Program-made: the position numbers and the translations under genes | Notes under the pieces: model-generated | What the model was told of the DNA's origin: nothing | The model's database searches: none | Seen by the model: the letters and a program-made list of their open reading frames with translations, nothing else | From: JALXCG01 sp026991065 [NCBI: Gemmatimonadota bacterium] | Lineage (GTDB): Bacteria; GCA-2686955 | DNA length: 9,577 nucleotides | Reading direction: 5' to 3' | Assembly: GCA_026991065.1 (NCBI GenBank) | Contig: JALXCG010000892.1 | Span: forward strand, 1 to 9,577 | In this document: positions 1-9,577 of the stretch, piece after piece | Numbering within the stretch: the stretch's first letter is position 1 | Layout: the number at the start of each line of letters is the position of its first letter

Positions 1-671
1 CCACCATAGTGAGGGCTGAGATAAAACATCGGCACGATCTGCCAGGAGACGGCGACCAGCAGCCCGCCGACCCAGCCCACCCCGATCAAAGAGAGATGCA
101 GGAGCAGCCGCTCCGCCCGCAGCGGCGGCGCCAGGCCGGCAGCGTAGAGAATGAGCAGAACCACCGCCAGCAGGGTAGCCAGAACAAAGGCGAAAAATGC
201 CAGGCGCATTCCCTGCACGCTGGCATCGGCCGCCGTCGTTCGATGCAAGGCGATCCCCACCGGAATGGTGAAACCGAGCAGCGCCGCTCCCAAGAGCCAC
301 GCCGCGACCCATAACCAACTCAGTTGCCCCAGCAGCAGCCCCCCGGCGAAAGCCACCATTCCCCCCGCCAGCAGCGCATGAACGCCGTGCGCCAGGCGCA
401 CCACCGGAACCGGCGCCCCCGCCAGCACCGGCAGCATCTGGTAGAGCGCGCCCCACATGATCATGGTGAGCACGCCCAGGGTTGCGACATGGGTCAACGC
501 CAAAGTGCTCGGCACCCAAGGTGAAAGCCACACCTCGGCGCCGCGCCAACATAGAATCGCACCGGCCGCGACCAGGGCGAGCGGCGCACTGAGAAAGAAA
601 CTCGCCGGGATGCTCAGCGGCGGCGCCTGATCGAAGCTGAGCCCGGCATCCATTCCTCCGAACGCTCTCAT
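1..671 (-). CDS. Polytopic membrane protein, NnrS / heme-copper oxidase subunit I-like (C-terminus cut by window edge)
   Basis: The first 223 codons are present and the frame is open to the window edge. The ATG at 671 overlaps the stop of the upstream regulator gene as ATGA (668-671), which fixes the start and implies translational coupling; the ribosome site itself is weak. An in-frame ATG at codon 7, directly after GGAGGA, is an alternative but too close to that motif. I see six hydrophobic segments, near residues 20-42, 56-84, 96-118, 119-142, 156-180 and 190-217. Motifs THVATLGVLTM (55-70 region, His61), GALYQMLPVLAG (74-85) and VSWQIVPMFYLSP (208-220), plus His192 in LLHLSLIG, resemble a family of conserved membrane proteins loosely related to NnrS and heme-copper oxidase subunit I, where paired histidines could bind heme. 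That family link is from memory of motif shape. No catalytic function can be claimed, and the missing C-terminus limits confidence. Confidence 0.72.
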   Translation of the reverse strand, partial: MRAFGGMDAGLSFDQAPPLSIPASFFLSAPLALVAAGAILCWRGAEVWLSPWVPSTLALTHVATLGVLTMIMWGALYQMLPVLAGAPVPVVRLAHGVHALLAGGMVAFAGGLLLGQLSWLWVAAWLLGAALLGFTIPVGIALHRTTAADASVQGMRLAFFAFVLATLLAVVLLILYAAGLAPPLRAERLLLHLSLIGVGWVGGLLVAVSWQIVPMFYLSPHYG

Positions 672-1756
672 GCCGGCCGCCAAACCAGAAGCACAACACC
701 CAACTCGCTGCGGTCAAGGAGCCGATGGCTCAAGCCGCGCTCCGCCAGGTGCGGAGGCAAGAGGCGTGGGCGGCGAGGCAACAGCGCACCGTAACGCTGC
801 CCCGGCGCAAGACCCGAAACCGCCTGGAGCACCCGCTCCAGGGGTTCCGGCGCCTCCAAGTCGCGCAGGTCGTCGACCGGCGGTCCCAGGATTGTCACCA
901 CCGAATCCCACAGATCGCTCCGCGCCTCTTCGGCTGCCACGCCGTGGCCGCTGGTCTCCATGAGCGCCACCAGAGGCCGCGGAAAGAAAGAGGAGCGAAT
1001 GATCAAGATGCTGCCGGCGGGAGCCTCTTCCAGTGCGGCACGCAAAAGATGAAAAGGATCGTTGCCCTGGGCGATCATCGGCCGCACATCAATCAAGCGC
1101 AACGTCGGTTCCGCATCCCGCGCTCGCTCACACTGGCCATCAACGGCGCCCGGCACCGCGGTCACCGGCGCTCCATCACGCGGCAAGGCCCCCACTTGCC
1201 ACTGCGAGAGCACTCCATCGGCTTGCTCCGACAACGGCACTCTGCGCCCCTCCATCTGCCAGTGCAGGACTGTCGCCTGGAGTGCCCCGATCAGTGCCAG
1301 GGCCGCCTGCCCGGGATCGATTTCGGCGGCGAAAGAGCCCTCCGCCTGCCCCTGGTAAACCAACTGCCCAAGCAGCGCCCGCTGCATCGCCAGCAGGTGT
1401 CGCAACGCCGCCGAAACCGGATCGGCGGCGGCGCCGGCGTTGGCAAAAAGCAGCCGCGGCAACCCCGGATTGCGTTCCACATGCGCCATGTAGGCCGCCA
1501 CCATGGCGCGGATTCTGGGTAGCGCCGCGGCATGCGTGCGGAACACCTCCTCGGCACTGCTCGCCAGCTCGTCCCGTGCCTCGTCGATCACCGCCAGCAG
1601 AAGCGCCTCGCGGTTGCGAAAATGGCGAAACAGCGCCGGTTGACTCACCCCCACGGCGCGCGCAATGCAACGCGTGCTCATCTGTTCCAAAGGTGTGTCC
1701 GCCAAAAGTCCCATCACAGTCTCGACGATCTCTACCTTGCGCTCAGAGGAAGCCAT
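668..1756 (-). CDS. TetR/AcrR-family transcriptional regulator fused to two DUF2249 domains
   Basis: The 362-residue product is much longer than a typical TetR protein (about 200). Residues 5-53 form the TetR DNA-binding domain, with the recognition-helix signature VGVSQPALFRHFRNREALL (35-53). Residues 60-185 are an all-helical TetR-type ligand/dimer domain. After a linker (about 186-216, containing Cys209) come two copies of a DUF2249-like module. The first is about 218-288 (LIDVRPMIAQGNDPFHLLRA, then FFPRPLVALME). The second is about 294-360 (DLRDLEAPEPLERVLQAVSG, then LLPHLAERGL-type and VVLLVWR ends). DUF2249 has the TusA/SirA-like fold; the sulfur-carrier cysteine position of TusA (CPxP) is Ala302 here (APEP), so sulfur transfer is unlikely and a sensing role is more plausible. 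The gene overlaps the downstream membrane-protein start by 4 bp and is divergent from the AtuA-family gene. TetR identity is secure, the DUF2249 assignment is by motif, and the ligand is unknown. Confidence 0.9.
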   Translation of the reverse strand: MASSERKVEIVETVMGLLADTPLEQMSTRCIARAVGVSQPALFRHFRNREALLLAVIDEARDELASSAEEVFRTHAAALPRIRAMVAAYMAHVERNPGLPRLLFANAGAAADPVSAALRHLLAMQRALLGQLVYQGQAEGSFAAEIDPGQAALALIGALQATVLHWQMEGRRVPLSEQADGVLSQWQVGALPRDGAPVTAVPGAVDGQCERARDAEPTLRLIDVRPMIAQGNDPFHLLRAALEEAPAGSILIIRSSFFPRPLVALMETSGHGVAAEEARSDLWDSVVTILGPPVDDLRDLEAPEPLERVLQAVSGLAPGQRYGALLPRRPRLLPPHLAERGLSHRLLDRSELGVVLLVWRPA

Positions 1757-1798: not shown

Positions 1799-1828
1799 CG
1801 CGATCGGATGATAACATCGCGGATCGCG
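1799..1828. promoter_or_regulatory. Nested inverted repeat, candidate TetR-type operator
   Basis: The outer arms are CGCGATC (1799-1805) and GATCGCG (1822-1828). Inside them, GATG (1807-1810) and CATC (1815-1818) form a second perfect inverted repeat around ATAA. The two centres differ by 1 bp. The element covers the predicted -10 of the minus-strand regulator promoter and sits about 90 bp upstream of the plus-strand promoter. TetR proteins commonly bind such palindromes in divergent intergenic regions and repress their own gene; that this one is bound by the adjacent regulator is inference. Confidence 0.5.
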
Positions 1829-1967: not shown

Positions 1968-3737
1968 ATGTCCAGCACGCTACGCATCGCCAACTGCAGC
2001 GGCTTTTATGGCGACCGGATCTCGGCGGCGAAAGAGATGGTGGAGGGTGGCCCCATCGACTTCCTCACCGGCGACTACTTGGCCGAACTGACCATGATGA
2101 TCCTCTACCGCGATCGCCAGCGTGATCCGCGGCTCGGCTACGCGCGCACATTTCTCCAGCAGATGGAAGAGGTGCTCGGGCGCTGCGTCGATCGCAAGAT
2201 CAAGGTCGTCGCCAATGCCGGCGGGTTGAATCCCGCCGGGCTGGCCGAGCGCCTCCAGGAGCTGGCCAAGAAACTGGGGGTCGAGCCGCGCATCGCCTGG
2301 ATCGAGGGGGACGACATTACCGCTCGCCTGGGAGAGTTGCAGCAGCGCGGCAACCCCCTGAACGACATGTCGAGCGGCAAGCCCCTGGCCTCATTGGATC
2401 AGGAGATTCTCTGCGCCAACGCCTACCTGGGTGCCTGGCCGGTCGTCGAAGCACTGAGCCGCGGCGCCGACATCGTGATCTGCCCGCGCGTCACCGATAC
2501 CGCCCTGGTGCTCGGCCCGGCGGCGTGGCATCACGGCTGGGGCCGCCAGGATTGGGACCGGCTGGCGGCCGGCGTGGTCGCCGGGCACATTCTCGAATGC
2601 GGCACCCAGTCCACCGGCGGCAACTACGCTTTCTTCCGCGAAGTCAAATCCTACCGCAATGTCGGCTTCCCCATCTGCGAGATGGAGGAGGACGGCACCT
2701 TCACCATCACCAAACACGAGAACACCGGCGGCCTGGTTTCGGTGGGCACGGTAAAATCGCAACTCCTCTACGAAACGACCGACGCTCACTACCTCACCCC
2801 CGACGTGGTCGCCCGCTTCGACACCATTCAACTGGAAGAGGCCGGCGAAAACCGCGTGCGGGTCACCGGCGTCAAGGGGGAGATCGCGCCCAGCACTCTC
2901 AAAGTCGCCATGCTCTATGTCAGCGGCTACCGCAACGCCGGCACCATCCTTCTCACCGGCCTCGACATCCCCGAAAAGGCGCGCATCGTCGAAGAGGCGT
3001 TCTGGGATCTGATGGGCGGGCACGACACCTTCGAAGAAGCGCGCATCGACCTGATCAACCAGACCCCGCAGGATCCCAGCTCCAACAACTACGCCTTCGC
3101 TCAACTGCGTTTCGCCCTGCGCGACTCCGACCGGCAGAAGGTCGGCCGGCGCTTTTTCGACAAGATGGTGGAACTCGCCCTCTCCAATATCCCGGGCTTC
3201 ACCATGCCCACCAACGTCGGCAAATCCGCCTCCCCCTGCGCCTCCTTCTGGGCGGCGCTGGTACCGGCCAGCGAGATCGAGCAGGTGGTGGTCATCGACG
3301 GCGAGCGGATCCCGGTTCCCCACACCGAAATTCCGGACGAAAACGTAACCGTGACCCCACCCTCGATCGAGGTTCCGCCGCCGCCCGGCGGCCGCACCCG
3401 GCGCATGGCGATCGGCGAGGTTTTGGGCGCCCGCTCCGGCGACAAAGGCGGTGCCGCCACGTTGGGCGTCTGGGGGCGCACACCGGAGGCCTACTCCTGG
3501 GCGGTCGAACACCTCACCATTGAGCGCATTCGCGAGTTGATTCCGGAAGCCCGCGGCCTGCGGGTCGAGCGTTTTCTCATGCCCAACATGCTGGCGATCG
3601 GTTTTCTCATCGACGGCATTCTCGGCGAAGGCGCCAGCGCCTCCACCCTGATCGACCCGCAGGCAAAATCCCTGGGCGAGTATTTCCGCGCCCGGCACAC
3701 CGATGTACCGGTGGCACTGCTGCCGCCTTCAGCCTGA
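1968..3737 (+). CDS. Acyclic terpene utilization AtuA-family protein (DUF1446 + AtuA-like C-terminal domain)
   Basis: The product has 589 residues, about the length of full AtuA-type proteins. The N-terminal DUF1446 region (about 5-455) shows the family motifs ANCSGFYGDR (8-17), IDFLTGDYLAELTM, VVANAGGLNP, and ILECGTQSTGG with a following NYAFF. A proline-rich linker (PPSIEVPPPPGG, about 463-475) leads to the C-terminal domain with LGARSGDKGG (486-495), the hallmark of the AtuA-like C-terminal domain. No signal peptide or membrane segment is seen, so it should be cytosolic. AtuA is named from the Pseudomonas citronellol/geraniol (atu) cluster, but its exact reaction is not established, and many family members occur outside terpene pathways near short or branched acyl-CoA genes. 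Here it stands alone between its own promoter and terminator, divergent from the TetR-DUF2249 gene, which may control it. Family assignment is firm; the substrate is unknown. Confidence 0.93.
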   Translation: MSSTLRIANCSGFYGDRISAAKEMVEGGPIDFLTGDYLAELTMMILYRDRQRDPRLGYARTFLQQMEEVLGRCVDRKIKVVANAGGLNPAGLAERLQELAKKLGVEPRIAWIEGDDITARLGELQQRGNPLNDMSSGKPLASLDQEILCANAYLGAWPVVEALSRGADIVICPRVTDTALVLGPAAWHHGWGRQDWDRLAAGVVAGHILECGTQSTGGNYAFFREVKSYRNVGFPICEMEEDGTFTITKHENTGGLVSVGTVKSQLLYETTDAHYLTPDVVARFDTIQLEEAGENRVRVTGVKGEIAPSTLKVAMLYVSGYRNAGTILLTGLDIPEKARIVEEAFWDLMGGHDTFEEARIDLINQTPQDPSSNNYAFAQLRFALRDSDRQKVGRRFFDKMVELALSNIPGFTMPTNVGKSASPCASFWAALVPASEIEQVVVIDGERIPVPHTEIPDENVTVTPPSIEVPPPPGGRTRRMAIGEVLGARSGDKGGAATLGVWGRTPEAYSWAVEHLTIERIRELIPEARGLRVERFLMPNMLAIGFLIDGILGEGASASTLIDPQAKSLGEYFRARHTDVPVALLPPSA

Positions 3738-3836: not shown

Positions 3837-6017
3837 TTAGATGCCTGAGAAGTAGTCCATCTTGCCGCTGCCGGAGGCTCCCAGGTCTCCGGAGTCCAGC
3901 ATCTCGCCGGAAGCATCCAGGAAGCCCAGCAGATTGCCGGAGGCATCCAGCATCCCCAAAATACCGCCGGAAGCATCCAGAATCGCAATCATGCCACCGG
4001 AAGCGTCCAGAACTCCCAGGAGGCTGCCGGAAGCATCCAACATCCCCAGAATGCCGCCGCTCGCCATCAGCTCTTCAGCCAATCCATCGCTGGAAGCATC
4101 GAGCATGGTGATGATCCCGCCGGAGGCGTCCAGCATGCCGATGATCCCGCCGGAAGCGTCCAGCATGCCGATGATCCCGCCGGTCGACTCGATCTCGCCA
4201 AGCTCCTGCGCATTGGTTTGCAGGAAGGACCCAAGTCCCCCGGACGCCTCCAGCACTCCCAGAATCCCGCCGTCGGCTCCGCACATTCCACCCAGATCAA
4301 AGTCGATCACCTGCCAGGTATCCACCAGATCGGTGGCGCTGTCGTAGAGACAGAAGAACCCCTCTTCGGTCTCGATAAAGAGCGCGACACCCAGTTCCTG
4401 GTCGTTGACCACAGCACCGATCTGGTTCGAGGGATAGAGGTTTTCCGGTGGTGCCGCCGGATCCACATAGCCCTCCAGGTCGACTCGTTCCCGGGTAACG
4501 ATATTGGGCCATTCGGTCAGCGCCCGATAGGGATCGATCAGGCCGTATCCGGTCTCCTCATCCCACCCGGCCGGTCCCAGGTCCGACGCGGTCTGGGTAA
4601 TGATGTTCTGCACATCGAGCGGGGTGAGTGAAACCTGCACGCCACTGGCATTGGAGAGCAGCATCGCGGCGAGCGCCGCCACGTGCGGGCTGGCCTGCGA
4701 AGTCCCGGCGCAGAACCAGTAGCCCAGATTCTTGGGCTTCAGATAGCCGATCGAAGTGCTCAGGATGGCGTCCGGGTAGCCATCTCCATCCAGATCCTCT
4801 TTCGACCCGCCGGGTGCCACGACATCCAGCGCCTTGCCGTAGTTGGAATAGCTGGTCCGCAGCGCATCGCGATTCACCGCGCCGACCGCGATTACTTCGT
4901 TGTAGGCCGCGGGATAACTCACTTCCGGCCAGTTCTTGTTGCCGGCCGCGGAGACCAACACGATCCCCGCCGCCTCGGCATCCTTGATCGCCGCTTCCAT
5001 ATAGGCACCGGGATCGAAGCCCGGCGGGAACGACACGCTCAGATTGATCACCCGGTAGGGGTGCGGCATCTCGATCACCGCGCGAATCCCATCCACCAAG
5101 GCCTCGATCGTGCCCTTGCCATGCTCATCGAGCACCCGCACCGGGGCGACCGTAAAGAAGGGAGCCATACCGGCGATGCCGACGCCGTTGTCGATCTCCG
5201 CGGCAATGATCCCGGTGACATGCGTTCCATGCTGATTCATGTCGTAGGCGGCGGATCCCGGCGCAATGCAGTCGGTCGCATGCAGGAATGCCGGCGCCAG
5301 ATCGGGATGCTGGGCATATTCGGTGCCGGTGGCGGCATCCACGCCGGAACTCCAGGCCACACCGGAGTCAAGAACCGCGATCAGCACATCCTCGCGCGCC
5401 GCGGTACCATGCTCCACGCCCCAGGCGGCGGGCATGTTCAGCATCTCCAGGTTCCACTGGTATCCGGCATAGTAAGCATCGCTCGGCGGCCCTTCGCCCG
5501 CATAATCGGTATTGCTTGAGCAGACCGCATTGGGAACCGCCGCGCGCACCCTCGGGTCGGCGCGAAAACGCGCCAACAACTCGGCCAGACCACTGTGATC
5601 CGCCAGCGGGCCGCGCACTCCGGCACGCCGCAGATGCCGGCGCACCACTTCCGGCTTCGGCGTGCGCACTTTGAACCAGCCGCCCGGCATCTGGTCACGC
5701 TCGATCCGCAGACCATAGTCAGCCAGGAATGCCGCCCGCTCACGCCGCCCCACGCCCCGCCGCAACTGCACCAGCAACTCGCGATCCACCACCTCGACCA
5801 ACGCTCCGCTCCGCCCCAGCGGACTCTCGACCGTCGCCCGTCCGGCCACCTGCGGTGTGGCCGTGGTGACCGGCGCTACCGCCGCCCGCGCGCCGGCCGG
5901 AACCAGCGCAAGACCACCGGCGAACGCCAACCCAGCGACCCACAATGTCCGCCGCGCCCAGCGCCGAGAGGTCCAGTTGTCATCGTGTTGCCGAACTAAA
6001 TGCTCGGGAAAGTTCAT
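3837..6017 (-). CDS. Secreted subtilisin-like serine protease (peptidase S8) with C-terminal decapeptide repeats
   Basis: The 726-residue product starts at the ATG at 6017, chosen because AGGAG lies 6 nt upstream; an in-frame ATG at 6086 lacks this. Residues 1-45 are a signal peptide with arginine pairs (SRRWARRTL, 17-25), a hydrophobic core and an ARA-A cleavage site, Tat-like or Sec. Residues about 80-170 look like an S8 inhibitory propeptide (LLVQLRRG, GWFKVRTP, FRADPRVRAAVPNAV). The catalytic domain (about 185-500) has Asp217 (AVLDSG), His263 (NQHGTHVTG), oxyanion Asn360 (SAAGN) and Ser440 (GTSQASPHVAAL), so it should be active. DLDGDGYPDA (408-417) is a calcium-loop-like insertion just before the serine motif. 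GYGLIDPYRAL marks the end of the fold. Residues about 583-712 are ten-residue repeats (see separate entry), and the protein ends in FSGI without a known sorting tag. It presumably degrades proteins outside the cytoplasm; the substrate is unknown. Confidence 0.93.
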   Translation of the reverse strand: MNFPEHLVRQHDDNWTSRRWARRTLWVAGLAFAGGLALVPAGARAAVAPVTTATPQVAGRATVESPLGRSGALVEVVDRELLVQLRRGVGRRERAAFLADYGLRIERDQMPGGWFKVRTPKPEVVRRHLRRAGVRGPLADHSGLAELLARFRADPRVRAAVPNAVCSSNTDYAGEGPPSDAYYAGYQWNLEMLNMPAAWGVEHGTAAREDVLIAVLDSGVAWSSGVDAATGTEYAQHPDLAPAFLHATDCIAPGSAAYDMNQHGTHVTGIIAAEIDNGVGIAGMAPFFTVAPVRVLDEHGKGTIEALVDGIRAVIEMPHPYRVINLSVSFPPGFDPGAYMEAAIKDAEAAGIVLVSAAGNKNWPEVSYPAAYNEVIAVGAVNRDALRTSYSNYGKALDVVAPGGSKEDLDGDGYPDAILSTSIGYLKPKNLGYWFCAGTSQASPHVAALAAMLLSNASGVQVSLTPLDVQNIITQTASDLGPAGWDEETGYGLIDPYRALTEWPNIVTRERVDLEGYVDPAAPPENLYPSNQIGAVVNDQELGVALFIETEEGFFCLYDSATDLVDTWQVIDFDLGGMCGADGGILGVLEASGGLGSFLQTNAQELGEIESTGGIIGMLDASGGIIGMLDASGGIITMLDASSDGLAEELMASGGILGMLDASGSLLGVLDASGGMIAILDASGGILGMLDASGNLLGFLDASGEMLDSGDLGASGSGKMDYFSGI
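3909..4271 (-). repeat. 30-bp / decapeptide repeat tract in the protease C-terminus
   Basis: The tract encodes residues 583-703 of the protease. Nine clear units fit GG(I/L/M)(I/L)x(M/V/I/F)L(D/E)AS, beginning at residues 583, 613, 623, 633, 654, 664, 674, 684 and 694. More diverged units fill 593-612, and one 11-residue unit at 643-653 shifts the register by one codon. At DNA level the units are 30 bp. Copies 4111-4140 and 4141-4170 differ at one base, and the first 13 bp repeat again at 4171-4183, suggesting recent duplication. A final degenerate unit and a Gly/Ser-rich tail follow. I recognise no named repeat family; alternating hydrophobic pairs with DASG turns would suit a beta-solenoid or stacked beta-arch, which is inference. 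Confidence 0.9.
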
Positions 6018-6023
6018 GCTCGT

Positions 6024-6028
6024 CTCCT
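6024..6028 (-). promoter_or_regulatory. Ribosome binding site deciding the protease start
   Basis: On the minus strand AGGAG is followed by six bases (ACGAGC) and then the ATG at 6017. This is the strongest ribosome site near any candidate start and places the signal peptide at the N-terminus. Confidence 0.85.
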
Positions 6029-6061
6029 GGCAAAAGGACACCGGAATCGTGATCGAGAACC

Positions 6062-6083
6062 GACCCGGTCGACTCTCCGGGTC
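6062..6083. repeat. GC-rich hairpin in the protease leader
   Basis: GACCCGG (6062-6068) and CCGGGTC (6077-6083) are perfect 7-bp arms around an 8-bp loop, 45 bp upstream of the protease ATG. In minus-strand RNA it is not followed by a T-run, so it is not a standard terminator. It may be 5' UTR structure or a protein-binding palindrome. Confidence 0.45.
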
Positions 6084-6120
6084 CACCCGCTCTGGTGCAG
6101 GAGTCGTGCCGAACCGGGAA

Positions 6121-6239: not shown

Positions 6240-9200
6240 TCACTCGGCACACTCCACCACCTGGGCAGCGATCTCCACCCGGTTCCGGCCACTGCGTTTG
6301 GCCACGTAGAGCGCCTCATCCGCGCTCGGCAAAAGCACTTCCACCTGGCGCCGATCTTTCGCTTCCACCCCAACCACACCAAAGCTGCAGGTCACCGGAC
6401 GCCCCTCAATGAGTGGCGCCGCTTCGATGCCCGCGCGCAGACGCTCGGCAACCGCCGCCGCGGCCACCGCCGTCATGCCGGGCAGCGAAACCGCGAACTC
6501 TTCACCGCCCAGCCGGCCCACCATCCCGGGCCCCTGGGTCAGCTCCTTCAGGATCGCGGCAACCCCCGCCAATACGTGATCACCTTGCGCGTGTCCCAGT
6601 TCATCGTTGACCCGCTTGAAGTGGTCGATGTCGACCATCAGCAGCGAAAACGGCAGCCCCATGCCGATCGTGCGCTCATAGTCTTCCGCCAGGCGCTGGA
6701 GGAAGTAGTGCCGGATCGCCACCCGCGTCAGCCCATCCACGGTCGCCCGCTCAAAGAGGCGGGCGTTGCGAATCGCCAACGCCGCCTGGTTGGCCAGCGA
6801 CTGCAACACAAAAAGCTCATCCCGCCCGAGATCATAAACCGGCCGCTCGTCATCCACGTAAATCACGCCGATCACCCCATCCATGCTCGCCACCGGCAGA
6901 CCGATCATAAAGCGCAGATCGAGTTTTCGAATCGATGAGCGGCGCCGGAAATCCTGAGCCTCCTCCGCATTGGTCACGATCACCACTTGCCCGCGCCGAA
7001 ACACATCTTCAACAAACGTCTTGCTGTAGCTGATACTGGCCGGGTCGTCCACCTGCGGGCCGGCGTAAGCCACCAACTCGCTCTCTTTGCTCTTTTCATT
7101 CTTTAGAAAGAGCAGCGCCCGTTTGCCGCCGGTCAGCTCGATCGTCTTCTGCGCAATCAGGTCGAGCAGTGGCGAAAGCTCGTGAATCGCATTGATCTGC
7201 AGCGTGATATCCAGCAGATGGCGCAGCAGGTGATCGCCGGTCATGCTCCGCGCCTGCTCCGCGGCCACCGGCGCGTCGTTGTCGATCTCCAGCAGAAGCC
7301 GGCTCGCCACACTGTGGTCCGCCAGCGCCCCCAACTTCTCGAAACCGGCGATGGCGTGCTCCAGAACCGCCCGCGCCGCGCCATAGCGTCGCATCCGCTG
7401 GAGTATCTGCGAGCGCTGCACATCCACTCGGTGCGCAGCATGAATCAGATTCGACTTCGCCATCAGCCGCCGCGCCCGCCCGTAGCGTGCCAATGCCCGG
7501 TCCCGCAACCCCCGCCGCAAAGCCACCGCCGCGCCCAGCGCCAGTCCGTTGGCCACCTCCGCGCGACTCCCGGCCCGTCCGGCGGCGCGCAGCGCGATCG
7601 CCGCCAACGCCCCCGCTACCATCGCATCGCCGTACTCCAACTCCCACGCCGCGATCCGCCGCAGCGCTTCGATCCCCTCACCGGTTGCGACCATGCCGCG
7701 CGCATCTCCCTGCGGCGAGTTCTCCACCCAAAGTGCGGCTGCCCGCCCAAAGCGCTCCCGCGCCTCCGTCGCATCGCCGTCCAGCAGAGCCAGCTCCCCC
7801 ATATTCCCTTCGACCGCGGCGATCCCGCTCCACTCATCCAGCGCCTGCGCCAACTCCAGCGCCTCCTCCAGAAGTCCGCGCGCCCGCCGAAAATCCCCCT
7901 GATCGCGCAGCAACTGCCCAAGATTGTTCAGCGCCCGCATCCGTGCCGGAAGATCCCCCACACTCGAGGCAACCGCCAGCACATCGCGGTAGGTCTCCGC
8001 CGCCTGGTTCCATTCCCCCCCCGCGGCCTGGGCCACCGCTTGATTCGACAGCGCCACCAGATAGGCATTCAGGTCGTGCGTTCGGCGGCTGCGCTCCGCC
8101 GCATTGCGGAAGCACCCCACCGCTTGCGCATACTCCCCGCGCTGCCAATGCACCGCGCCGATCGCCACCTCACAGGCAGTCGCCCGGCGCTCATCGCCCA
8201 ACTCCAGGAAAGTCTTCAGCGCATCGGCGTAGGCCTGCGTCGCCGCCGCCAGATTGCCGCGGTTCAGGTCCACCCGCGCGCGGGTGTGCTTGAGCGCCGC
8301 CCGCTCGCGCCGCCCGTCAACTGTCTCGGGGATCACCGCCTCCGCCGCCGCCAGGCTCTCCAGGCACGCTTCGATCTCGCGCCGCGCCAGTTGCGCCAAA
8401 CCGCGCCGGTGGAGCAACCGCACCCGCAGAGTCGCCGCCTCGCTCCCCGGCACCAACTCCGCCGCCCGCAAACCGACCGCCACCACACGCTCCGCATCCG
8501 CCGATCGATTCATCACCACCAAAGAGCGCGCCAGGGCTCCCGCCGCCCGCGCCCGGCGCCACGGATCCGCGGCATCCAGGAGCGGTCGCACCGTCTCCTC
8601 AACTTCCGCCGCGCGACCCGCACGATCCAACGCCTCTCCCCGCGCCAGAACCATCTCTTCCAGCAGATCCCGCGGCGCCTGCGCCTGGAAGCGCTCGATG
8701 AACGTCGCCAGCGCCTCCGCCTCCTCCAGCGGCGACTGCAAGCGCTGCCAGCGCCGCCCGGCTTCCGCCAACGCCTCCGCCGCCGCCGCAAACTCTCCCA
8801 CTGCTCCCAGATGCAACGCTGCCCGCGCCAGCGCCTGCGCGCCCGCGCCCTGCTGCTGCCGCGCCGCCACCCCCTCCAGCACCGTTACCGCCCGCCGATG
8901 CAGTCGCTCCCGGTCCGCCGCCGACAAGCTCTCCACAATGCTCGTCGCCAGCGCCGCGGTGCTGAAGCTCACCTCGGCATCGCCCCACGAGAGCCCACCC
9001 CCGGGGCTCGAGCGATCCACCAAACCACACCGCTCCAACCGCTCAACCGCCGGAATCAGCCCCGCCCGCGAACACTCCGCCAGATCCGCCAGGTCGGAGA
9101 GCCGACAGCGGCCGAAGATCGCCAACGCCTCGGCCGCGCGCCGCTCCACCGGTGCCAGGTCGGTGGGCAGGGTCACCGCCGTCTCTTCCGTATCCGGCAC

Positions 9201-9577
9201 ATGGAAACGCAGGTCGGGCAGCTCCGCGCTCCAGCACTGGTCGTAGACCAACTGCCCGGAGCGGATCAGCGCCTTCACCCCGCGCAGCACCCGGGCCGGA
9301 ACACCGCCCGAAGCCCGGTATACCTCGCTCACGAACTCCGCGCGCAACCGCTTGCTGCCGAGGTGACTGGCCAGCAACTCCGCCACTTCCGCCTCGCTCA
9401 AAGCTCCCAGGCGCCCGGCGTAGAACCCCTCCGGCACGCGCGGCGGCCGCAAGCGCCGCGGCCCTCCCGCGATCACCGCCAGGCGCCCCCGCGGCACCGC
9501 CTCCGAAAGCGCGCTCAGCACCTGCTCGAGAACCGGATTCGCCTCCTCGGTGGCATCGATCAGGAGCAGCGTGCGCC
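6240..9577 (-). CDS. STAND/AAA ATPase-TPR-GAF-diguanylate cyclase fusion (N-terminus cut by window edge)
   Basis: The last 1111 residues are present and the frame is open to the edge. The visible start RTLLLIDATEEA (near 9540-9575) looks like a Walker B strand, so the P-loop, and perhaps a kinase domain, lies outside. A winged-helix-like segment (about 9010-9160; LSDLADLAECSRAGLIPAVE) follows. Then comes a long helical solenoid with clear TPR units (about 7560-8900; ALNNLGQLLRDQGDFRRARG). A GAF domain lies at about 6760-7235 (RFMIGLPV, GVIGVIYVDD). The C-terminal GGDEF domain (about 6265-6750) has metal-binding DIDHFK (DID at 6624-6632), VNDELGHAQGD, the active loop GGEEF (6495-6509) and ADEALYVAKRSGRNRV. 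It should make cyclic di-GMP from two GTP, gated by the ATPase/TPR and GAF modules in the cytoplasm. The RxxD inhibitory site is absent (QGPG at that position). The signal is unknown. Confidence 0.92.
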   Translation of the reverse strand, partial: RTLLLIDATEEANPVLEQVLSALSEAVPRGRLAVIAGGPRRLRPPRVPEGFYAGRLGALSEAEVAELLASHLGSKRLRAEFVSEVYRASGGVPARVLRGVKALIRSGQLVYDQCWSAELPDLRFHVPDTEETAVTLPTDLAPVERRAAEALAIFGRCRLSDLADLAECSRAGLIPAVERLERCGLVDRSSPGGGLSWGDAEVSFSTAALATSIVESLSAADRERLHRRAVTVLEGVAARQQQGAGAQALARAALHLGAVGEFAAAAEALAEAGRRWQRLQSPLEEAEALATFIERFQAQAPRDLLEEMVLARGEALDRAGRAAEVEETVRPLLDAADPWRRARAAGALARSLVVMNRSADAERVVAVGLRAAELVPGSEAATLRVRLLHRRGLAQLARREIEACLESLAAAEAVIPETVDGRRERAALKHTRARVDLNRGNLAAATQAYADALKTFLELGDERRATACEVAIGAVHWQRGEYAQAVGCFRNAAERSRRTHDLNAYLVALSNQAVAQAAGGEWNQAAETYRDVLAVASSVGDLPARMRALNNLGQLLRDQGDFRRARGLLEEALELAQALDEWSGIAAVEGNMGELALLDGDATEARERFGRAAALWVENSPQGDARGMVATGEGIEALRRIAAWELEYGDAMVAGALAAIALRAAGRAGSRAEVANGLALGAAVALRRGLRDRALARYGRARRLMAKSNLIHAAHRVDVQRSQILQRMRRYGAARAVLEHAIAGFEKLGALADHSVASRLLLEIDNDAPVAAEQARSMTGDHLLRHLLDITLQINAIHELSPLLDLIAQKTIELTGGKRALLFLKNEKSKESELVAYAGPQVDDPASISYSKTFVEDVFRRGQVVIVTNAEEAQDFRRRSSIRKLDLRFMIGLPVASMDGVIGVIYVDDERPVYDLGRDELFVLQSLANQAALAIRNARLFERATVDGLTRVAIRHYFLQRLAEDYERTIGMGLPFSLLMVDIDHFKRVNDELGHAQGDHVLAGVAAILKELTQGPGMVGRLGGEEFAVSLPGMTAVAAAAVAERLRAGIEAAPLIEGRPVTCSFGVVGVEAKDRRQVEVLLPSADEALYVAKRSGRNRVEIAAQVVECAE

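Follow-up and report, generated by a model that had tools for sequence, protein, structure and literature searches.

A TetR-family regulator carrying a DrpB-type DUF2249 tandem and overlapping a membrane partner gene

Introduction

What does a DNA-binding regulator do with two DUF2249 domains at its C-terminus? The window analysed here, a stretch of 9,577 nt that makes up one whole contig, encodes a TetR-family protein of this kind, for which an original prediction made from the letters proposed a sensing role, perhaps for a redox, sulfur or nitrogen-oxide signal.

A study on H. mediterranei describes DUF2249 as a domain of unknown function and reports that all four DUF2249 genes of this organism are up under denitrifying conditions (PMC11218638). 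Genetic data come from the Drp proteins of T. thermophilus (PMC6282519). When both Drp proteins are missing, expression of nar and dnr becomes independent of nitrate, and drpB mutants show constitutive expression; DrpAB also affects nitrate reductase maturation. DrpB is described there as a cytoplasmic, partly membrane-bound protein in which no transmembrane domain and no DNA-binding motif were detected, and its authors offer only speculation on its route to transcription. The same paper mentions DUF2249 occurring with response-regulator domains (PMC6282519).

Results

Architecture of the regulator

The regulator gene and its domains lie on the window as follows.

668..1756, minus strand: TetR-DUF2249-DUF2249 regulator gene, 362 aa, stop included (open reading frame and Pfam)
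1589..1714, minus strand: TetR_N helix-turn-helix, residues 15-56 (PF00440, E 2.8e-10, 40.3 bits, cut-off 24)
1232..1525, minus strand: TetR C-terminal ligand/dimer domain, residues 78-175 (TetR_C_13, PF16925, E 6.3e-9, 36.6 bits, cut-off 27)
902..1093, minus strand: DUF2249 copy 1, residues 222-285, copy-1 type of DrpB-type tandems
680..871, minus strand: DUF2249 copy 2, residues 296-359, copy-2 type, with Ala302 at the TusA cysteine position

Pfam identifies DUF2249 (PF10006) in two stretches of the 362-aa product with an E of 1.6e-15 and 57.1 bits against a cut-off of 29.5. This significant match bears out the central claim of the original prediction, a TetR regulator with two extra DUF2249 modules. 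The module boundaries, proposed as residues 218-288 and 294-360, shift to 222-285 and 296-356/359, and the motifs named for the two modules, LIDVRP and DLRDLEAPEP, are both present. Scored singly, copy 2 (680-871) reaches 35.4 bits and copy 1 (908-1093) 28.1 bits, slightly below the cut-off; the Pfam TusA profile matches the regulator weakly (E 0.0072, 16.6 bits, cut-off 28.6). PF17932 and PF08359 likewise score over their cut-offs in the regulator, which identifies a helical ligand/dimerisation domain, and NCBIfam gives partial matches, with SlmA in first place and FadR and FasR next, none of them near its cut-off.

A plus-strand reading of 668-1756 is ruled out by an internal stop codon. A frameshift or chimera joining two genes is ruled out in practice, since the whole protein is present, at 48% identity, in a relative of the same family (G001, public contig NYZA01000066.1), where it has the same architecture at full length and the same downstream gene. 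In a pairwise comparison of the two fusion proteins, the stretch QPALFRHFRNREALLLAV, which lies within and after the helix-turn-helix, is identical, and this fits a shared DNA site.

The structure model of the full protein, built with six sequences, has a mean pLDDT of 66 and is weak in the TetR part; the structures that it matches there belong to the TetR family, among them SlmA, FadR and EthR. Modelled alone, the tandem reaches a mean pLDDT of 91.3 and consists of two beta-alpha-beta-alpha-beta-beta units.

Rarity of the fusion

The window's own genome (G000) is an assembly of 4.14 Mb in 902 contigs with a completeness of 83.8%. Among the genomes searched, G001 is the only other member of its family and phylum, and both assemblies are about 84% complete. 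When 386 genomes were searched with the full-length protein (E <= 1e-15, often with only the best five candidates per genome scored), only the G000 and G001 fusions reach the DUF2249 part, and no other match extends beyond model position 224. A scan of genome contigs yielded six loci, with the fusion only on the G001 contig, and the preceding scan gave no matches. With the full protein as tblastn query against plasmids, none of the best 30 of 219 records covers 80% of the query. DUF2249 has four matches in the own genome, only the fusion's two of which lie below E 0.3, so that this roughly 84% complete assembly contains no separate DUF2249 gene at E < 0.3. A literature search, with most subscription papers outside its coverage, returned no paper with both DUF2249 and TetR, and two that mention DUF2249.

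Tandem-DUF2249 proteins were collected by searches of 400, 385 and 380 genomes, a few of them shared. From 109 loci, chosen from genome-search hits and the contig scan, we counted 85 tandem proteins, which are not independent because three phyla weigh heavily. Sorted by N-terminal domain, 63 carry DUF1858, 20 carry neither DUF1858 nor TetR, and two carry TetR, namely the window protein and its G001 relative. The count leaves out nine full-span rows of the 400-genome search, whose open frames of <=299 aa are too short for TetR plus tandem, ten rows of the 385-genome search that are short or span a single copy or a fragment, and L114, L130, L181 and L203, which duplicate counted places; nor do the 85 include the small loci (L048-L077) or the records from plasmids (L178-L180).

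The two DUF2249 copies

We compared 193 DUF2249 domains from the loci collected up to that stage of the survey. In the resulting tree, a clade of 61 copy-2 domains (support 0.913) includes copy 2 of the window protein and excludes its copy 1. Support for the copy-1 grouping is low, at 0.16, and reaches 0.81 when an additional single-copy domain is counted in; the split is also imperfect, because two '2of2' copies from other proteins are placed with the copy-1 domains. Since the two window copies fall in different groups, a recent duplication inside this protein is ruled out. The doubling had been taken as peculiar to this protein; instead, copy 1 is of one subfamily and copy 2 of another, both shared by DrpB-type tandems, which makes it most likely, from the tree, that a pre-formed DrpB-type tandem was joined to TetR. 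Triple-DUF2249 proteins are encoded at L096, L132 and L145, all in one phylum, and the third copy at L096 is of the NDHDP type of single-DUF2249 proteins, a natural join of both kinds.

As had been stated, the TusA-cysteine position of the second copy is alanine (Ala302). The missing cysteine is not the special feature that it was held to be: it is ordinary, since none of the 193 DUF2249 domains has a cysteine in this column, and its loss as a distinguishing mark of this protein is ruled out by the same count. Copy-2 domains (n=63) have P in 52 cases, M in 5, A in 3 and other residues in 3. A cysteine anywhere in the domain occurs in 33/193.

The proposed TusA-like fold holds for copy 2, which matches YeeD (8k1r) with a VIA Z of 10.7 (1.9 Å over 69) and 3hz7 with a Z of 9.9. 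TusA (3lvj) gives a VIA Z of 9.0 with an aligned range spanning both copies. For copy 1 the best VIA Z is 7.5, to 1dcj (2.8 Å over 71), tied with unrelated folds, and its assignment therefore rests on the family. Foldseek with the tandem gave no match at E <= 0.001. The similarity to TusA is drawn from VIA, the Pfam DUF2249/TusA matches and the family taken together.

The membrane partner gene

Downstream of the regulator lies a second gene, cut by the contig end.

3..671, minus strand: gene for a haem-copper-oxidase-like membrane protein, cut by the contig end (homology; family HMM E 1e-45)
668..671, minus strand: 4-bp ATGA overlap of the regulator stop and the membrane gene start (read from the sequence)

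The same 4-bp overlap is read at L016 and L015, and the regulator and the membrane gene are likely to be translationally coupled. The window membrane protein shares 52% identity with the G001 copy and 28% with a protein of G032. It has no Pfam match at E <= 1 and the G001 copy has none over cut-off; the suggested oxidase-like identity of both comes through homologues. The G032 membrane protein is a COX1 match (PF00115, E 8.5e-13), and its upstream partner is a DUF1858-DUF2249-DUF2249 protein whose gene has the same 4-bp overlap with the oxidase-like gene.

The training set of the oxidase-like HMM consisted of the window, L015, L016 and L078-L113; loci of later searches lay outside it. An oxidase-like gene is found <=1.5 kb away from 80/85 tandem-DUF2249 genes and is absent in 5/85. 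Loci of plain TetR genes have one in 0/34 cases at the same E-value and in 2/34 at a looser threshold. A plain TetR gene beside an oxidase-like gene (L023, L024) was considered as a precursor of the arrangement and set aside, the HMM hits being weak (7e-6) and the protein NnrS-like by eye.

Two His are invariant in 22/22 oxidase-like partners, at residues 61 and 192 of the window protein, and no other conserved His column exists among these 22. The six-His-ligand set of haem-copper oxidase subunit I, including CuB, is not found in the partners, of which the window copy is truncated. Pei et al. 2014 reportedly described haem-copper-oxidase homology (HCOH) proteins, many with two conserved His that are possible ligands of one haem. 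The window partner family is COX1-related with two invariant His and resembles these HCOH proteins and NnrS, a likeness seen via homologues.

Genomic context of relatives

In T. thermophilus SG0.5JP17-16, nitrate reductase genes are followed by an MFS transporter gene, a single-DUF2249 gene and then a DUF1858-tandem gene; 1.3 kb beyond that lies an oxidase-like gene. The position of the tandem gene is that described for drpAB, and we equate this record with DrpB by position and architecture, not by locus name. The order in M. loti NZP2037 is NnrS, oxidase-like gene, tandem, DUF1858, Crp/Fnr, NosR/NirI and nosZ. In Rhizobium sp. SSA_523 the tandem stands between nor genes on one side and NnrS and nirK on the other; here NnrS is the adjacent membrane protein, and the one hit of the oxidase-like HMM, to NO reductase, is weak.

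The 9.6-kb window contig, which ends inside the partner gene, contains no recognised denitrification gene. Elsewhere in the own genome, contig C29 encodes a 740-aa NorB-type protein with COX1 and NorB_cytochrome_c-like domains. Near this gene (L176, G000:C29) is a small gene that by eye resembles an Rrf2/NsrR-type regulator with a cysteine cluster.

Two further window genes lie on the minus strand. The product of 3837-6086 is a subtilase (PF00082); inspection of its translation by eye shows a series of degenerate LDASGGI-type repeats at the C terminus. The product of 6240-9521 is a long TPR, GAF and GGDEF protein (Pfam); the start of its open frame is near the contig end, and its N terminus may be cut.

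A putative operator upstream of the fusion

The region upstream of the regulator contains one candidate site.

1799..1816, no strand assigned: putative operator, with half-site TGATAACA (1809-1816) inside ATCGGATGATAACAT (1803-1817), conserved upstream of the relative

The regions upstream of both fusions share ATC(A/G)GATGATAACAT. None of 300 Markov simulations of region pairs produced a shared stretch as long as these 15 bp at 1 mismatch; the longest was 14. Searched across the whole assemblies with <=1 mismatch, the 14-mer ATCRGATGATAACA has one match in G000 and one in G001, each time upstream of the fusion, and its reversed control has no occurrence in either assembly. With this single site per genome, no regulon-wide operator was found. 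In G001 the site, which lies between a hemerythrin gene and the fusion, is a perfect 8-bp dyad, TGTTATCA-GA-TGATAACA. The window version has an intact right half and a left half that matches at 4/8 positions; its perfect arms are instead CGCGAT and ATCGCG (1799-1804 and 1816-1821). One conserved site upstream of each fusion, together with the perfect dyad in the relative, makes autoregulation by the fusion regulator likely. The intergenic stretch 1757-1967 is candidate target DNA for the regulator, as is TGTTATCAGATGATAACA.

The ATG of the G001 fusion frame that is nearest the dyad overlaps it, and for this reason translation of the G001 fusion probably begins slightly further in, at a TTG or GTG.

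Divergent from the window regulator is a gene for an AtuA-family protein (acyclic terpene utilisation; 1968-3737, plus strand). The putative operator is 42 bp from the regulator start and 151 bp from the AtuA start. AtuA is not seen beside the G001 fusion and was dropped as a conserved neighbour; the gene divergent from that fusion encodes hemerythrin. The own-genome hemerythrin that by eye is closest to that of G001 lies on a separate contig (L177, G000:C620, at the contig end). The half-site TGATAACA was not found at L177, and on this ground control of this hemerythrin by the same operator was rejected.

Discussion

We put at about even the chance that the fusion is an autorepressor coupling a haem-type membrane protein to transcription, with the tandem DUF2249 as sensory or coupling module. 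In such a mechanism, the TetR dimer would bind the TGATAACA-type operator between the regulator and its divergent neighbour and repress its own operon, that is, the regulator and the translationally coupled membrane gene; in G001 the repressed set would also include the divergent hemerythrin gene. The tandem, which has no sulfur-transfer cysteine, would dock on the cytoplasmic side of the membrane protein. When the presumed haem of that protein meets NO, another nitrogen oxide, or a redox or oxygen change, docking would change and the TetR part would leave or re-bind the DNA. By analogy with the named relatives, whose tandem genes lie in nar, nos and nor/nir clusters, and with DrpB genetics, the signal is probably a nitrogen oxide or redox, and of the roles originally proposed this one stands as the best inference. 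Several observations weigh against this mechanism: the window contig has no recognised denitrification gene, the two fusions have different divergent genes, half of the left operator arm does not match in the window, 5 of the 85 tandem genes have no oxidase-like gene close by, the membrane neighbour in Rhizobium sp. SSA_523 is NnrS, and the fusion is known from two incomplete genomes. A more specific version, which we advance tentatively, sees a split membrane-to-DNA sensor of gas or nitrogen oxide, in which an oxidase-derived single-haem receptor passes its state through a cysteine-less TusA-like pair to the operator of the shared operon.

The fusion might instead be an ordinary ligand-responsive TetR repressor, for example one for acyl-CoA like its FadR/FasR relatives, with a DUF2249 tail that tethers or modulates and senses nothing. 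Its TetR_C domain is intact and scores above the cut-off, so a small ligand could be the real signal, and the partial NCBIfam matches to SlmA, FadR and FasR, the structural matches to SlmA, FadR and EthR, and the divergent AtuA-like gene flanking the window regulator all speak for it. However, the divergent gene in G001 encodes hemerythrin, not AtuA, the putative operator is nearer to the regulator start than to that of AtuA, and the items that are conserved are the tandem and the membrane partner; we find this account rather doubtful. Translational coupling is also what one would expect if the main task of the fusion were to help the oxidase-like protein assemble or mature, with TetR as simple feedback on its own operon, and the effect of DrpAB on nitrate reductase maturation points the same way. 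That proposal leaves unexplained why a DNA-binding domain is fused to the coupling module, and we consider it unlikely. A sensor of the sulfur state, in which the TusA-like tandem takes up persulfide or thiosulfate-derived sulfur as TusA and YeeD do and gates TetR, would suit the fold of copy 2 with its Z scores to YeeD (8k1r), 3hz7 and TusA (3lvj). It is nevertheless very improbable, given that neither copy, nor any of the 193 domains, has a cysteine at the sulfur-carrying position, that the five window proteins run on Pfam include no sulfur gene product, and that three named relatives sit with nitrogen-oxide genes.

An autorepressor coupled to a membrane protein has parallels in several known systems. 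DrpB of T. thermophilus (DUF1858-DUF2249-DUF2249) has the same copy-1 and copy-2 tandem, and an oxidase-like gene is nearby in both cases; the fusion has TetR in place of DUF1858 and thereby its own DNA-binding output, and unlike drpAB it is not beside nar genes on its short contig. With TetR/AcrR regulators such as SlmA, FadR, EthR and AcrR it shares TetR_N, the C-terminal domain, TetR-like fold matches and a putative palindromic operator, whereas its two DUF2249 domains (about 145 residues) and the coupled membrane partner gene are additions. YeeD/TusA with YeeE is a case of a TusA-like fold working with a membrane protein (PMC11073785), and in SoxT1B-SoxR a membrane protein signals to a repressor (PMC11582611). 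In contrast to both, the fusion has no catalytic cysteine, its partner is oxidase-like and not a thiosulfate transporter, and repressor and TusA-like modules are in one chain.

DUF2249 is also joined to a DNA-binding regulator in DUF2249-Crp/Fnr fusions (L110:3795-4739 and L111:1459-2409, two genomes of one family), which shows that it has been joined to DNA-binding outputs more than once. These proteins differ from the TetR fusion in having one N-terminal DUF2249 and a Crp/Fnr output (cNMP_binding and HTH_Crp_2), and no oxidase-like gene was detected in the 14 and 9 kb examined around them. What is new in the window protein is the TetR output domain on a DrpB-type tandem, the TetR family and DrpB-type tandems both being known kinds.

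Unlike DrpB, the fusion has a DNA-binding output, and has it in the same chain as the tandem. Rare as it is, it hints that signals at the membrane reach gene control through a poorly understood tandem module, and the oxidase-like membrane protein, encoded beside 80 of the 85 tandem genes, is a likely missing partner of DrpB-type proteins. If the split-sensor version of the coupling mechanism is true, DrpB proteins would be the same coupler acting on a separate regulator. Together with its putative operator and its coupled partner, the fusion turns the question of how DrpB reaches transcription into a two-gene test.
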